From the NCBI GenBank assembly GCA_013619125.1, contig JABXKS010000012.1, positions 1-64,000 on the forward strand: a stretch of DNA of 64,000 bases, read 5' to 3'. Below the pieces are notes generated by a model. The model did no database searches and was not told the DNA's origin. It saw only the letters and a program-made list of their open reading frames with translations. Shown here in pieces: positions 3,027-36,760 of this stretch (position 1 is the stretch's first letter; each line of letters begins with the position of its first letter). The translations under genes and the position numbers were made by a program. This DNA comes from Clostridiales bacterium. Its GTDB lineage: Bacteria > Bacillota > Clostridia > Tissierellales > GPF-1.

Positions 3027-4838
3027 ATGAATCGACAGCAACATATAAGAAACTTTTCGATTATCGCGCATATCGACCACGGGAAGTCCACCCTGGCGGA
3101 TCGCTTAATAGAAGAAACGGGTATGCTTGCCCAACGGGAAATGCAAAATCAAATTTTAGATAGCATGGATTTAGAGCGGGAGCGTGGTATCACCATTAAA
3201 TTGAACGCTACCCGTCTTGTGTATATGGCTGATGACGGGGACGAATATGTATTGAACTTAATCGATACTCCAGGCCACGTGGATTTCCATTATGAGGTAT
3301 CTCGATCCCTGGCTGCCTGTGAAGGCGCACTTTTGGTGGTGGATGCTGCTCAGGGAATTGAAGCCCAAACCTTGGCCAATGTCTATTTGGCTTTGGAACA
3401 AGATCTGGAAATTGTACCGGTGATCAACAAGATCGATCTACCTAGTGCAAGGCCGGAAGAGGTCAAGCATGAAATTGAAGACGTCATTGGCATAGACTGC
3501 GAGGATGCGCCATTGGTTTCAGCCAAGTCGGGATTAAATATCAGAGCTGTATTGGAGTCTTTGGTTAAAAATGTCCCAGCACCTACGGGAGATGAAGAGG
3601 CGCCATTGAAAGCCTTGATCTTTGATTCCTATTACGACAGCTACAAGGGTGTGGTAGTGGATATTCGTGTGATGGACGGGGCTGTGAAACGGGGCGATAA
3701 AATCCTGATGATGTCAACCAATACCGAATTGGAAGTGACTGAAGTCGGGGTGTTTATCCCGAGTATGATGCCGATTGACGAATTGCAGGCTGGCGATGTC
3801 GGGTATTTGGCTGCGAGCATCAAAGATGTTCGTTCGGCGCAAGTTGGCGACACAATTACCGAGGCTGCTCGTCCGACGACAGAGGCTTTGCCGGGCTATA
3901 AAAAAGCAACATCCATGGTATTCTGCGGAATCTATCCGGCAGAGGGTGAGGATTACAACAATGTACGCGACGCTTTAGAGAAATTGCAGGTCAACGATGC
4001 TGCGCTGTCCTTTGAGCCTGAAACATCGGTTGCCTTGGGATTTGGATTCCGATGTGGATTTTTGGGTCTTTTACATCTGGAGATTATTCAGGAACGTTTG
4101 GAGCGTGAGTTCGACTTGAATCTCGTGACGACGGCGCCGAGTGTTATTTACCGGATTACGCTGACTTCAGGCGATGTGGTTGAGATTCAAAACCCAACCA
4201 ATTTTCCTGAGACAACCTTGATTGAAACCATGGAAGAACCCATTGTGGAAGTAAATATCATGTCGCCATCCGATTATGTCGGGCAGATTATGGACTTGTG
4301 TCAGACCAGGCGCGCTGTTTTTAAGAATATGGAGTATTTGGAAGAGACCCGCGTGATGATCCATTATGATATGCCATTGAATGAAGTGATTTACGATTTC
4401 TTCGATGCATTGAAATCTCGAACCAAGGGCTACGCGTCCATGGACTATGAGATGAAGGGTTATCAGGTATCGAAATTAGTGAGGTTGGATATGCTGATCA
4501 ATGGGGAATTGGTGGATGCCTTTTCCATTATTGTTCATGAAGAGACGGCCTATCAGCGCGCGCGACAGATCGCGGAGCGCTTGAGAGAAGTGATTCCTCG
4601 CCATCAATTCACGGTGCCGATTCAAGCGACCATCGGTAGCAAGGTGATTGCCCGCGAGACGATTCGCGCCCTGCGCAAGGATGTCTTGGCCAAGTGTTAC
4701 GGCGGTGATATCTCGCGTAAGAAGAAATTATTGTCGAAACAAAAGGAAGGCAAGAAGCGGATGCGCCAGGTTGGATCCGTGTCGGTTCCGCAGGAAGCTT
4801 TCTTGGCGGTATTGAAATTTGATAGCACGAAAAAATAG
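3027..4838 (+). CDS. lepA: Elongation factor 4 (LepA), ribosome GTPase
   Basis: Translational GTPase that acts on stalled or immature ribosomes. Length (603 residues) is normal. The G1 motif AHIDHGKST is at residues 14-22, the G3 region reads DTPGHVDF, and NKIDLP is the G4 motif. EF-G-like domains follow and the LepA-specific C-terminus ends with [22 protein letters not shown] lies six bases before the ATG. A terminator hairpin follows immediately, yet hemW begins only 47 bases later. Confidence 0.97.
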
Positions 4839-29744: not shown

Positions 29745-29992
29745 AAGACAAAAGCGACGAACGAAAGAAAATTCTTGTGGGTGTCCATAGCGAGCCGGAG
29801 AAGGTGAAAGCCGGTGGCAGAAGCAAGATGACGAGCTTTCGGGAGCTGCCGATTCAACCCCTGGGGGTCAAAATCGGACGACACCGCACGTTACGCGGCA
29901 CGCAATCAGCGTGATGAGTGAGCAGAGTAATTATGCTAATTAGGGTGGTACCGCGAAATCTTTCGTCCCTTTAAGACGAGAGGTTTTTTTGT
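29745..29992 (+). ncRNA. T-box riboswitch 2, near copy of the first
   Basis: AGGGTGGTACCGCG is at 29942-29955. The specifier region GCAAGATGACGAGC is identical to copy 1, so both read the same tRNA; candidate specifier CGA at 29832-29834. The basal helix is here perfect (CGAAAG / CTTTCG). The terminator stem (CTTTCGTC / GACGAGAG, TTTTTTT) is retained. Differences from copy 1 are scattered and mostly in loops or compensated. Confidence 0.93.
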
Positions 29993-32294: not shown

Positions 32295-32352
32295 AGTACA
32301 GATTTGTACAAGTACGCTGAAACCATAGGGCAATCTGCTCTATGGTTTTTTT
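32291..32352 (+). promoter_or_regulatory. Transcription attenuator upstream of the ABC exporter
   Basis: Terminator: AACCATAGGGC (32321-32331) pairs with GCTCTATGGTT (32337-32347), one G-U, loop AATCT, followed by T to 32352. Competing antiterminator: ATAGAG (32291-32296) and CAGATT (32299-32304) pair with CTCTAT (32338-32343) and AATCTG (32332-32337), 12 pairs with a two-base bulge. The upstream arm covers the leader stop codon, so a terminating ribosome would block it and allow termination, while a stalled ribosome would free it. Confidence 0.8.
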
Positions 32353-32396
32353 GCGGCCTACACTTGGTAATTAATGGTAGATTTTACTGTAATGCC

Positions 32397-32424
32397 CCCG
32401 CAGGGAAACTTGCGGGATTTTTTT
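32397..32424 (+). terminator. Second terminator-like hairpin before the exporter
   Basis: CCCGCA (32397-32402) pairs with TGCGGG (32411-32416), followed by A and seven T. It sits 24 bases before the exporter start codon. A possible promoter (TTGGTA 32364-32369, 18 bases, TGTAAT 32388-32393) would start right at this hairpin. Confidence 0.7.
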
Positions 32425-32447
32425 ATGCAAAAAAGGGGGGGATTAAC

Positions 32448-34246
32448 ATGAGCTTTTTTCAACAAATACGAGAACATACTCGAGGGTCGGAACGATATTT
32501 TTTGATCGCGATCGGATCGGTTCTGGTTGCAAGCTATCTATCAACATTAAGTCCATTAATTATTCAATTTACCATTGATCAATTGCTGGCGGGGCAGCCA
32601 CTGGAACAACATCATTGGCTCAGCAGGTTATTGACACAAGGGATGACGAGTTTGACCACAAACCAAGGGTTGTTTTTGATGGGGCTGGCCTTGACACTGG
32701 TGATGGCGGGGCGAGGGGTCTTTGATTTTTATAAGGGACGCCACGCGGCCTTAGCCGCGGAGACCACAGTGGAACGGATTCGAGACAAGCTTTACACCCA
32801 TCTCCAGCATCTGTTTTTTGCGGAGTTGGGGGATGCGAAGAGCGGCGAATGGATTCAACGATGTTCGTCAGACGTGGAAACGGTGAGAAAATTTCTAGCC
32901 AATCAAATGACGGAAGTGATACGAGCCATCTCATTATTCGGATTCACATTGTGGATGATGCTTCAGATTGATTGGCGTATGACGATTCTTTCGACTTTCT
33001 TGATTCCGCCGATATTTGGATTTGCCTTTTTCTTTTTCAAAAAGGTTCAAAAGCTCTTTCTCGATATGGATGAGACAGAAGGCGCCCTTTCGGCACTGCT
33101 TCAGGAAAATCTGACCGGAGTACGCGTGATTCGTGCCTTTGGTCGGGAAGCGACGGAGGCGGCCAAGTTTGATGAGAAGAGTCAAGAGTATCGAGACAAG
33201 ACGATGAAACTGGTGCGTGCGATTGCCGTATATTGGGGCAGTTCGGATTTTTTAGCCATGATGCAACGCACCCTGGTCATCCTTGTTGGGACCGTTTGGG
33301 CTGTGCAAGGACGCGTGAGTTTGGGGACGGTCGTCGCTTTCTTCACCTATATCAACATGATTCTCTGGCCTATTCGTCAGATGGGTCGAATTTTGACAGA
33401 CCTCAGCAAATGCAAGGTTTCTCTAGGCCGGATTGAAGAGCTTTTGGCTTTGCCGACAGAAAATTTTGATGATCATGAACCGATGAAAACCATCTTGGGA
33501 CGTGTGGAACTGAAAAATCTTACCTTCGCTTACCCGGGAGAAGAGCCGATCTTGGAGGATTTGAACCTGATCATTGAGAAAGGGGAAACAATTGGAATCG
33601 TCGGTCCTACGGGAGCGGGTAAAAGCACCCTGGCACATTTGATTGCAGGATTGATCCCGGTGGGGGCTGATCAAGTGTTGATAGAGGTGAAGACATTGGA
33701 AGTTTTCCAGCGAAATCGATCAGAAAGCAGATTGGGATCGTGATGCAGGAGCCATTCCTCTTCGCGAGGAATATTCGAAAGAACATTGCTATCAAAGACG
33801 AGAGTGTGAGTGAGCAAGAGGTGGTTGGAGCGACGGAAACTGCCTCCTTGCATCAGACAATTTTGGGTTTCAATGCAGGTTATGATACGGAAATTGGAGA
33901 ACGGGGCGTGTCATTGTCTGGCGGACAGAAGCAGAGAATGGCTATTGCCCGCACCATTATCGACGAGGTCCCGATTGTGATCTTTGACGATTCATTAAGT
34001 GCCGTTGACGCGGGAACGGATATTGAAATTCGTAACCGATTGAAAGAGCGAAAGCATCAGGCAACGACTCTGATTATCGCCCACCGATTGAACAGCGTTA
34101 TGCATGCGGATCGAATCATGGTGCTGCGGAATGGGAAAATTGAAGCCATCGGCACCCATGGAGAATTGGTCAAGGAAAAGGGATATTATCAACGCCTTTG
34201 GGAAATTCAAAGAGGAGATTGGAAGGAGGAGAATCGCTGTGGATAA
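32448..34246 (+). pseudogene. Heterodimeric ABC exporter, subunit 1 (single-base frameshift)
   Basis: Full-length exporter half (membrane domain plus ATPase) of the BmrC/YheI type, split by a one-base loss near 33687. Up to there one frame reads LIVGPTGAGKST-type Walker A (GPTGAGKSTLAHLIAGLI) and ...QVLIE; the other frame continues [48 protein letters not shown] and IIAHRLNS. Restoring one G in GAGGTGAAG rebuilds the sequence without gap. Walker B has Asp in place of the catalytic Glu (IFDD), the mark of a degenerate subunit in heterodimeric exporters. It is either a real mutation, a sequencing error, or frameshifting; I cannot separate these. ATG 32448 has AAAGGGGGG upstream. Its C-terminal frame overlaps subunit 2. 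Confidence 0.85.
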
Positions 34247-36023
34247 ACAACAAAAAAGCCAATGGACCATAATTAAAGAACTGGCACAATTTTTCAAGCC
34301 CCATCGCAAGCAAGTGATTCAACTCGCTGTATTGATGATCTTTGTGGGCATGATGGATGCCATCAGCCCTTACTTTTCCAAATACGCGATTGACACCTAT
34401 ATCGAAACCGGCAGTCTAGATCATTACGGCATCTTTGCTGGGATCTATCTGGCTCAGGTAGTCTTCTTGAGCATCAGCGTTTATGGCCTGATCTATTTGG
34501 CCGATTCCATCGGCACAAAGGTCAGCTATGACGTGCGAAAGCGTGGATTTGAAAATCTACAGGAGCTGTCCTTTTCCTACTACGACCGGACTCCGGTCGG
34601 TTGGATTATGGCGCGGATGACCTCGGATATCGGAAAGATTACAGAGGGCATTTCTTGGGCTTTGGTTGATATGGTATGGGGCATAACCATGATCATCGCG
34701 ATTCTCGGTATCATGCTGGTCACCAATTGGCGATTGACCATGATCATGATTGTCTTGATGCCAATCCTGATGGTTGTGAGTTATTTCTTTCAAAACCGCA
34801 TTTTGAAACAGCAACGCTTGGTGCGGAAAATGAATTCACGGATCACCGGTTCATTCAGCGAAGGGATCATGGGAGCGAGAACCACCAAGAGCCTGGTTCG
34901 GGAAGAGAAAAACATCGGAGAATTTGAAGACCTTGCAAGCAATATGCGCGGGGCAGCGGTACGATCCGCTACCTTCTCGGCAGGCTATATCCCTATCGTA
35001 TTTTTAATCAATGTAGTGGGACAAGCCTTTATCTTGATTCGAGGCGGGACTGGTGTGCTTGATGGCAGCATCAGCTATGGAACCTTGGTTGCATTTATCT
35101 CCTACGCGGTTTTGATGTTCGAACCTGTGCACCACTTTGCGGTGGTTATGGCACAGTTTCAAGCCACTCGGGCTTCAGCTGAGCGAGTGATCGCTCTCTT
35201 GGAAGAAAAGCCAGAGGTGCGGGATATCGAAGCAGTGGTGGCCGAATATGGTACGGCTTTAGCGCCAAAACGAGAAAACTGGCCATCCTTATTGGGCGCG
35301 ATTTCCTTTGACGATGTGAGTTTTGCCTATAACCCCAAGGAACCTGTGCTAGACCATTTTACCTTGGAAGTGAAAAAGGGCGAAACCATCGCTCTAGTTG
35401 GTGAAACTGGATCCGGAAAAAGCACCATCGTGAATCTTGCTTGCCGATTCTATGAACCGACGGAGGGAAAGATTCGAATTGATGGGGTGAATATTCAAGA
35501 ACGGTCGCAACTGTGGCTTCATGATCATCTGGGATATGTGCTGCAGCAACCCATGCTTTTTAGTGGAAGCATCCGGGATAATATTCATTTTGGCCGGGAA
35601 GACGCCACGGAAGAGGAAATTGTGGCGGCGGCAAAACAGGTTCACGCCCATGACTTTATTCAACGCCTGCCGGCTGGATATAACACGGAGGTCGGTGAAG
35701 GGGGCGCGAAGCTTTCAACAGGGCAAAAACAATTGATTTCATTTGCCCGTGCGATTTTAAAAAATCCGCAGATCTTTATTCTTGATGAAGCGACCTCGTC
35801 CATCGATTTGGAAACCGAGGTTCAAATTCAACGAGCAACCCAAGCCATCTTGGCTGGGCGGACCAGTTTTATTATTGCTCATCGCTTGTCGACCATTGTT
35901 CATGCGGACAAGATTCTGGTATTAAAGGATGGTCGCATTGCTGAGCAGGGCAATCATAACAGCTTGATGAAGGCGAAGGGCATTTATTATAAGTTGTATC
36001 GAAGTCAATTCGACGCGGCATAG
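34239..36023 (+). CDS. Heterodimeric ABC exporter, subunit 2 (BmrD-like)
   Basis: Half-transporter of 594 residues: six membrane helices, then an ATPase with Walker A GETGSGKST, Walker B IFILDEATSSID with the catalytic Glu, and H-loop IIAHRLST. The signature is LSTGQKQ, departing from LSGGQ, whereas subunit 1 keeps LSGGQKQ. The two subunits would therefore make one complete and one degenerate ATP site, typical of multidrug exporters such as BmrCD. GTG at 34239 with AAGGAGGAG upstream, overlapping subunit 1 by eight bases. Substrates are inferred to be drugs, lipids or peptides. Confidence 0.93.
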   Translation: MDKQQKSQWTIIKELAQFFKPHRKQVIQLAVLMIFVGMMDAISPYFSKYAIDTYIETGSLDHYGIFAGIYLAQVVFLSISVYGLIYLADSIGTKVSYDVRKRGFENLQELSFSYYDRTPVGWIMARMTSDIGKITEGISWALVDMVWGITMIIAILGIMLVTNWRLTMIMIVLMPILMVVSYFFQNRILKQQRLVRKMNSRITGSFSEGIMGARTTKSLVREEKNIGEFEDLASNMRGAAVRSATFSAGYIPIVFLINVVGQAFILIRGGTGVLDGSISYGTLVAFISYAVLMFEPVHHFAVVMAQFQATRASAERVIALLEEKPEVRDIEAVVAEYGTALAPKRENWPSLLGAISFDDVSFAYNPKEPVLDHFTLEVKKGETIALVGETGSGKSTIVNLACRFYEPTEGKIRIDGVNIQERSQLWLHDHLGYVLQQPMLFSGSIRDNIHFGREDATEEEIVAAAKQVHAHDFIQRLPAGYNTEVGEGGAKLSTGQKQLISFARAILKNPQIFILDEATSSIDLETEVQIQRATQAILAGRTSFIIAHRLSTIVHADKILVLKDGRIAEQGNHNSLMKAKGIYYKLYRSQFDAA

Positions 36024-36041
36024 CAACGAGAGATGCGACTA

Positions 36042-36294
36042 GCAGGAAGTGTTTACATTTCCTGCAGGATGCATCGATAGTTGCGAGGATCATATGGTTT
36101 ATATGATCCTAAAGGAAACCTAAGGAATCATATGGTTTATATGATCCTAAAGGAAACCCAAGGAGGGATCGTTGTACGATCCACGAACAGAACTAAAGAG
36201 CAGGGAGTGCTTGCATTCCTTGAGACGAGCATAATGTTTGTAAGGATCATAGATTTTTGATCCACAAAATAAATTAATAAGGATCAATCAATCC
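36042..36294 (+). repeat. Array of RNA hairpins downstream of the exporter
   Basis: At least six inverted repeats in 250 bases: GCAGGAAGTG / CATTTCCTGC (36042-36065), GGATCATAT / ATATGATCC (36087-36109), the same again with one mismatch (36124-36147, 38-base period), GGATCG / CGATCC (36166-36182), a second AGGGAGTG / CATTCCT (36202-36220) and GGATCA / TGATCC (36244-36263). The order of an AGCAGG-type hairpin followed by a GGATCAT hairpin occurs twice, so a unit of about 70 bases was duplicated. No T runs follow them, so they are not terminators. Confidence 0.85.
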
Positions 36295-36318
36295 TAATAA
36301 AAAACAGGAGGTAGAGAA

Positions 36319-36387
36319 ATGATTACAACTACAATTCAAACCGAAAAGAGAGTAAAGGACGACCAGGAATTGCGAAAACGGAGATAA
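36319..36387 (+). CDS. Microprotein A1, 22 residues, unknown function
   Basis: Encodes MITTTIQTEKRVKDDQELRK plus RR. ACAGGAGG lies six bases upstream of the ATG. The peptide is hydrophilic and basic at its end. Its tail (KDDQELRKRR) resembles the middle of the gene at 36537 (REDRFVRKRK), so these are probably duplicates. It is the first of four tiny genes. Confidence 0.55.
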   Translation: MITTTIQTEKRVKDDQELRKRR

Positions 36388-36408
36388 AAAAACAGGAGGA
36401 AGTAGACA

Positions 36409-36513
36409 ATGAGACGATTTAAATTTTTCCATTTCCCAGTTGAGCTGATGCATTTTAACTTTATGCGTCGGGTAGACGGGATGGAGCTCTACAGAAGAAT
36501 AGAGCGACTGTAA
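36409..36513 (+). CDS. Microprotein B1, 34 residues, unknown function
   Basis: Encodes a peptide starting MRRFKFFHFPVELMHFNF and ending RRVDGMELYRRIERL. AGGAGG lies nine bases upstream. It shares about half its residues, without gaps, with the gene at 36616, notably EL..FNF-type and VDGM-LYR-IER positions. The aromatic, basic N-terminus followed by a charged C-terminal half suggests an amphipathic or membrane-surface peptide; function unknown. Confidence 0.7.
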   Translation: MRRFKFFHFPVELMHFNFMRRVDGMELYRRIERL

Positions 36514-36536
36514 CATAAAAATGAGGAGGAAACAAG

Positions 36537-36650
36537 ATGATGACAGATCGAAAGACGGACCGGCGGAAGGCTTGGAGAGAGGATCGATTTGTCCGGAAAC
36601 GGAAAGGAGCACCAAATGAAACGATTATTTACATGGATTTATTCAAGTGA
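36537..36650 (+). CDS. Microprotein A2, 37 residues, unknown function
   Basis: Encodes a very basic peptide beginning MMTDRKTDRRKAWREDRF. GAGGAGG is upstream with usual spacing to 36537 or 36540. Its C-terminal codons overlap the B2 gene in another frame by 35 bases, and its coding sequence contains the B2 ribosome binding site (AAAGGAG). It pairs with B2 as A1 pairs with B1. The start MMT is shared with the leader peptide at 32172, perhaps by chance. Confidence 0.55.
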   Translation: MMTDRKTDRRKAWREDRFVRKRKGAPNETIIYMDLFK

Positions 36651-36723
36651 ACTGAACTTCTGGAATTTTGAGAAGAAGGTTGACGGAATGGATCTTTACC
36701 GTTCGATTGAACGGATTTCATAG
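36616..36723 (+). CDS. Microprotein B2, 35 residues, unknown function
   Basis: Encodes a peptide starting MKRLFTWIYSSELNFWNF and ending KKVDGMDLYRSIERIS. AAAGGAG lies six bases upstream of ATG 36616. Against B1, 16 of 34 aligned residues are identical and most others conservative, which supports both as true coding sequences. The codon differences at conserved residues are largely third-base changes, as expected for protein-level selection. It is followed by a bidirectional terminator. Confidence 0.7.
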   Translation: MKRLFTWIYSSELNFWNFEKKVDGMDLYRSIERIS

Positions 36724-36726
36724 AGA

Positions 36727-36754
36727 AGAGGAGAAGGCTGTGGCCTTCTCCTCT
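36727..36754. terminator. Bidirectional terminator
   Basis: AGAGGAGAAGGC and GCCTTCTCCTCT pair perfectly over 12 bases with loop TGTG. It lies between the microprotein genes and the convergent metallo-hydrolase gene. Confidence 0.85.
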
Positions 36755-36760
36755 TTCATA

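Follow-up and report, generated by a model that had tools for sequence, protein, structure and literature searches.

Several described systems invite comparison with the small genes analyzed here. Phenol-soluble modulins are tandem leaderless peptides that form amphipathic helices, the precursors of the RRNPP pheromones (SHP, Phr and AimP) are short, have a conserved C-terminus and are encoded by duplicated genes, and SpoVM is a very short protein with a proline at position 9 in its N-terminal amphipathic stretch. SR1/SR1P and RNAIII are dual-function RNAs, and orphan small-protein families are, as a type, common. The leaderless multi-peptide bacteriocins of the aureocin A70 type comprise several short and highly cationic peptides, encoded in tandem near an ABC transporter (PMC6131525). 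In Bacillus subtilis the small protein SR1P is encoded in the dual-function RNA SR1 and exerts its effect within the cell by binding the enzyme GapA (PMC8501984).

We have analyzed a window of 64,000 nucleotides from a Clostridiales bacterium (contig JABXKS010000012.1; genome G000, 3.4 Mb in 130 contigs) and compared it with two congeneric genomes, G001 and G002. One locus in the window, which we have referred to as the B locus, shares with the aureocin A70 type the presence of leaderless short tandem peptides near an ABC transporter. However, in the family to which these peptides belong conservation lies in the C-terminal motif and not in the charge, and most of the copies are located away from any exporter. 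The phenol-soluble modulins and their Pmt system differ in that we found no Pmt-like operon and no sequence relation, and in the conserved polar C-terminal motif of the present family. Short length, a conserved C-terminus and duplicated genes are shared with the RRNPP precursors, but here the overall length is fixed, there is no Sec-type leader and no adjacent receptor gene was recognised (no TPR/HTH receptor beside the family loci among the neighbours scanned). The very short length and a proline near position 9 are reminiscent of SpoVM, a candidate that was rejected; no member matched its profile (PF08183) and SpoVM itself is absent from all three genomes of the genus. As in SR1P/SR1 (PMC8501984), small proteins are encoded on an RNA that may itself act, this action being putative in our case. 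Unlike SR1P, which is a single-copy protein of different sequence, they form a multigene family with three loci, and the RNA is missing from two of these.

Layout of the locus

The four short frames with AGGAGG-like sites listed in an earlier note on this DNA are all present, with ATG starts at 36319 (A1), 36409 (B1), 36537 (A2) and 36616 (B2) and a good purine-rich Shine-Dalgarno site at each of them (Table 1). Their location between an ABC exporter (stop at 36023) and a terminator (36725-36756), also given there, is correct. Beyond the terminator lies the gene of a beta-CASP metallo-nuclease, convergent with the small genes, and the order exporter, leader, A1, B1, A2, B2, terminator and nuclease was the same in G000, G001 and G002. 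The feature extends beyond the span 36319-36723 given in that note, with a structured RNA at 36023-36310 and members of the same family at two further loci of the genome.

Table 1. Coordinates of the features discussed, in the window or in the contig named.
Feature	Position	Strand	Description
Second subunit, heterodimeric ABC exporter	34104..36023	+	Pfam ABC_membrane and ABC_tran; true start probably near 34215
Tandem structured RNA	36023..36310	+	Separates the exporter from the small genes; consists of module a and a weaker module b
Module a	36023-36187	+	Hairpins CAGGAAGUG/CAUUUCCUG, GGAUCAUAU/AUAUGAUCC (duplicated) and GGAUCGU/ACGAUCC
Module b	36190-36303	+	Weaker module
Structured RNA counterparts in congeneric genomes	L028 6212-6540; L030 1504-1784 (minus)		
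A1	36319..36387	+	Basic frame of 22 aa (MITTTIQTEKRVKDDQELRKRR); probably a small gene or a leader that is translated; SD AGGAGG
B1	36409..36513	+	34 aa microprotein; DLYRxIE family, canonical type FPVELMHFNF...DGMELYRRIERL
A2	36537..36650	+	37 aa basic frame; overlaps B2 and carries B2 SD; open in 3/3 species
B2	36616..36723	+	35 aa microprotein; local duplicate of B1
Terminator-like hairpin, intrinsic, 14-bp	36725..36756	+	Precedes convergent beta-CASP nuclease gene; kept in three species
Locus D	L027 7476-6842	minus	G000 array; counterparts on L029 and L031; 5, 3 and 3 genes

Conservation and origin of the small genes

Aligned without gaps, B1 and B2 have 16 of 34 residues in common, exactly the count of the earlier note, and the alignment score of 80 was far above that of shuffled controls (mean 18, maximum 37 in 5000 shuffles). 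Among the three congeneric species pN/pS was 0-0.08 for B1 and 0.18-0.25 for B2. The excess of synonymous changes in B1 (P 0.0015) appeared in the proposed frame only, the other two frames having none. When five intact loci were pooled for the pair G000-G001, pS was 0.35 and pN 0.075 (ratio 0.21), with a synonymous excess of P 1.7e-9. As judged from the sequences, B1 and B2 are real genes. An alternative TTG start of B2 at 36589, giving 44 aa, was rejected because in G001 a stop is located directly upstream of the ATG, which fixes the start at 36616. B1 and B2 group together in the family tree (support 85/82) and, being each other's nearest relatives, most likely originated by local duplication. 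An ancestral pair in which the first gene was canonical and the last diverged found no support in the tree.

The small genes have also changed little at the nucleotide level. Between G000 and G001, 6% of the sites in B1 and B2 differ, as compared with 16% over the final 624 nt of the exporter, 22% for the nuclease gene and 35% for the leader. Only 8 of the 69 third codon positions of B1 and B2 had changed, versus 83 of 207 at the 3' end of the exporter (p 6.5e-6) and 100 of 213 in the nuclease gene (p 4e-8), indicating a constraint on the nucleotides as well as on the protein. The source of this constraint could be RNA structure, regulation or codon bias.

The idea of an A-B cassette that was duplicated and kept at the protein level holds for B1 and B2 (pN/pS 0-0.25, synonymous excess) but not for the A frames. 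The basic tail that A1 and A2 were said to share did not exceed the similarity of shuffled basic peptides (p = 0.06, or 0.14 with the longer A1 of G001), and we found no paralogues of either frame outside the B locus. Neither does A2 end at REDRFVRKRK, since its frame stays open as far as 36650 and has 35 nt in common with the start of B2. A1 is 22, 30 and 31 aa long in the three species, with a variable start and end in G001 and G002, an in-frame 6-nt indel and a pN/pS of 0.05-0.34 over its core. For A2 the value upstream of B2 was 0.5-0.7, and the 44 nt leading to the B2 Shine-Dalgarno site were almost invariant among the three species. Conservation supports A1 weakly, and A2 less. Both frames are rich in Arg and Lys. 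A1 ends at the B1 ribosome site or immediately upstream of it, and A2 contains the ribosome site of B2 and runs across its start. The two frames may encode leader peptides with a coupling or slowing effect on translation, or else small proteins of basic character.

A family of microproteins in one genus

Searching its own genome with B1 gave two more loci, and a profile built from 20 members brought the family to 22 copies (21 intact and one decayed) in the three genomes of the genus, i.e., nine in G000, six in G001 and seven in G002. With this profile no further copies appeared in the three genomes up to E 10. All intact members are 33-35 aa long, and the chain ends two or three residues past the IE of [G/A]MDLYRxIE. 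Over the family alignment M1, I31 and E32 are invariant, and M25 and R29 are conserved in at least 90%. The C-terminal consensus [GA]-M-D-L-Y-R-x-I-E-x-L corresponds to an amphipathic helix. The N-terminal half is short, hydrophobic and variable, with a motif [FY]P[AV]EL.H[FY]N[YF] common to B1, C1 and D1.

Each genome has three loci: the B locus, the D array with three to five copies, and locus C, where one or two copies lie close to an ECF-sigma operon or at another place. The D array stands alone and has its own consensus promoter (TTGACA-17-TATACT). It adjoins an M42 peptidase gene, and in G000 it is flanked on the opposite side by the gene for an MscS-type channel. Some 250 nt preceding the array (L027 7500-7750, minus; also on L029 and L031) are A+T-rich and contain the palindromes TTAATATATATATTAA. 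Together with a conserved block ahead of the promoter, TATTGGGG...ATCAATATATCTAG, these are candidate regulator sites. In G000, C1 is located directly 3' of the genes for an ECF sigma factor and a 392-aa protein without Pfam match. This succession of sigma factor and 392-aa protein is kept in G000 and G002 (L026 2228-3867; L065 12890-14526). C2 is solitary in G000, with its own terminator directly after the gene and before biotin synthase, and it is the sole locus C copy recovered from G001, where its surroundings differ. A conserved block AACATAG...GTGGGTATATAAA upstream of C2 in the three species (L026 about 4010-4050; L032; L064 6600-6650) is possibly an alternative-sigma promoter.

The C1 copy of G002 provides a natural control. 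Here the ribosome site and the start codon are gone, and DLYQ in the motif has become ALSQ, as expected if the motif is selected only in working copies. The orthologues of C2 evolve faster (pN/pS 0.35-0.59), as could be expected of peptides involved in signalling or conflict as well.

Outside the genus the searches returned nothing convincing. At a threshold of E 0.001, neither the 246 further genomes searched for the order nor the 390 further ones in a sample of the class contained a relative. Weaker matches elsewhere in the order (E 0.02-1) were short, several with stops or inside other frames, and were taken as chance. A motif scan of 84,980 GTDB species genomes, carried out with one short pattern that could miss distant relatives, gave only the contigs of G002 itself and one chance match, lying within the reading frame of an AMP-ligase in the Actinomycetes (L060). 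Neither viral contigs nor plasmids or phages contained family members. Small proteins of the type VDGM-x-LYR-x-IER, which had been suggested as a search in Clostridia, were not found outside the genus in these searches. Among described families, the 20 members gave a best Pfam match below the cut-off (Prok-E2_A, E 0.18) and none in NCBIfam; PHROG 3686 matched one of the 20 members (E 0.0016) over the N-terminal half only and was discarded as chance, and a PDB profile search with the family retrieved nothing relevant. As far as these collections extend, the family is known so far from one genus only and is without a described relative.

The structured RNA upstream of the small genes

The region 36024-36318 folds at -98.5 kcal/mol, whereas its dinucleotide shuffles gave -59 +/- 4.7 (z -8.4); by the same measure the corresponding leader region has z -7.4 in G001 and -8.1 in G002. 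A module of three hairpins is present about twice per species, its copy number differing between species. In the four modules that were aligned, five pairs have compensatory changes and 95.8% of the cells are paired, versus 31-43% with slid partners. The covariance model detected the module only at the B locus in each of the three genomes, without a convincing match among 28 further genomes of the order, and no Rfam family matched the RNA at the gathering score. CsrA is a common partner of GGA-rich hairpin RNAs, and the 7-12 AGGA motifs present here suggested a sponge of the CsrB/RsmZ type that titrates it. This candidate was rejected because CsrA (PF02599) is absent from all three genomes, the control genomes being positive.

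Very stable tandem hairpins with compensatory changes, together with the extra constraint at the third positions of B1 and B2, are what one would find if the transcript 36023-36756 were mainly a regulatory RNA and the two microproteins its second function. We consider this distinctly unlikely, in view of the variation in hairpin number between species, the lack of CsrA and the fact that high expression with codon bias could explain the low synonymous change. Above all, related proteins are kept at the D and C loci, where there is no RNA, and the synonymous divergence of D5 is not low (pS 0.69), indicating that for the family the protein is primary. In the reading that we favour for the B locus, the structured RNA and the basic A1 and A2 would be a leader that tunes the translation of B1 and B2, i.e., a case of translational coupling, for which the end of A1 at the B1 ribosome site, or just before it, and the position of A2 across the B2 start would be the basis.

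The exporter and the question of export

The relatives of the neighbouring exporter in the PDB are TM287/288, TmrAB and BmrCD (BmrD/YheH), i.e., the common heterodimeric drug type, and no peptidase domain (C39) accompanies its ABC_membrane and ABC_tran domains. The first subunit (32304-34246) is in two frames owing to a one-base deletion with respect to G001, where it is intact (623 aa); this could be either a real lesion or an assembly error. A T-box leader (29748-29973) lies upstream of a gene resembling the solute-binding protein of an amino-acid ABC transporter.

The earlier note saw no double-glycine leader in the four frames, and none of the family members has the GG motif. No signal peptide-like or transmembrane stretch was found in the family either. 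Seven of the nine members in G000, including the D array with its own promoter, are away from any recognised ABC exporter, and none was recognised at the C and D loci, so that exporter linkage as a general property was discarded. The earlier note had left open whether these were exported or exporter-linked peptides or regulatory microproteins; regulation comes out as the best option and the link with the exporter is weakened. Given an exporter without peptidase, the lack of one at C and D and members without export signals, a role as exported peptides is not favoured, and the neighbouring exporter is probably not key to the function of the family.

Two forms of export deserve separate consideration. 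The members could be secreted signalling peptides of which only the C-terminal ten residues are active, the N-terminal half being discarded and export provided by the neighbour or by a PptAB-like ABC exporter. Conservation does peak at the very C-terminal end, which invariably lies two or three residues beyond IE, the gene copies multiply and decay, an exporter is adjacent at one locus, and there is a precedent in the SHP/Rgg peptides exported by PptAB (PMC7564271). Still, we consider this unlikely, as neither an exporter nor an obvious receptor gene was recognised at the C and D loci, there is no cleavage-type leader, and the fixed length of 33-35 aa and the N-terminal motif of B1, C1 and D1 exceed the needs of a discarded pro-region. 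The other form would be leaderless bacteriocins or amphipathic peptides like the phenol-soluble modulins, exported by the neighbouring ABC transporter. Tandem leaderless genes of this size, with an amphipathic helix and an adjoining exporter, are in agreement with it. However, leaderless bacteriocins are highly cationic (PMC6131525), and here the net charge goes from -4 to +4 across 21 members; a dedicated ABC transporter beside the genes would be expected, yet an exporter is present at only one of the three loci, the B locus, there is no immunity-like gene, and the conserved polar R29 and E32 are not needed for membrane lysis. This makes such a function very unlikely.

Proposed role of the family

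Across the 21 members the hydrophobic moment of the C-terminal helix is kept at 0.4-0.8, and the maximum Kyte-Doolittle value over 15 residues (-0.4 to 1.3) indicates a low to moderate hydrophobicity. AF2 models of B1 and D1 have a C-terminal helix, predicted with low confidence (pLDDT 63-65). A helix that is kept while the charge varies is more readily reconciled with specific binding than with membrane lysis of a general kind. In addition, the fixed length, the invariant polar residues of this helix, the variable charge and the separate transcription units fit intracellular regulators. We propose tentatively, as a possibility that falls somewhat short of probable, that microproteins of the B1/B2 type work inside the cell, where their C-terminal helix would dock on a partner common to them all. 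The conserved C-terminal end, seen also in pheromone precursors, counts against docking. Under the docking proposal the family members would be small regulators inside the cell, with one common partner (a protein or a membrane-bound complex) contacted by the C-terminal helix, and their diverged N-terminal halves and separate transcription units would provide different timing or specificity. The exporter would probably be only an upstream neighbour in the operon.

A location at the membrane surface has been considered as well, with the members as peripheral amphipathic helices, similar to SpoVM, that mark or modulate a membrane or envelope complex. The short hydrophobic stretch at the N-terminus, the proline at position 9 or 10 in B1, C1, D1 and D5, and the neighbouring MscS-type channel gene (D locus) and exporter (B locus) point in this direction, but with a hydrophobicity that is at most moderate and without a match to the SpoVM profile we regard it as improbable. 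The intracellular docking proposal can be enlarged to a new genus-specific class of multi-copy proteins with a shared docking helix and one partner, in which the B locus would be a dual-function RNA of tandem hairpins encoding up to four microproteins. Reading the sequences this far is speculative, and we think it quite unlikely that the whole of it holds.

What is new is the family itself, for which no described relative was found, although the kind of thing is common. It is an unannotated family at the lower limit of size, with codon-level selection in three species and paralogues at three loci, and it is open to genetic tests in any member of the genus that can be cultured. Its B locus joins very small proteins to a new structured RNA. 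With an array of three to five copies and one decayed copy, the family would be a clean case of a lineage that invents, multiplies and loses very small proteins.
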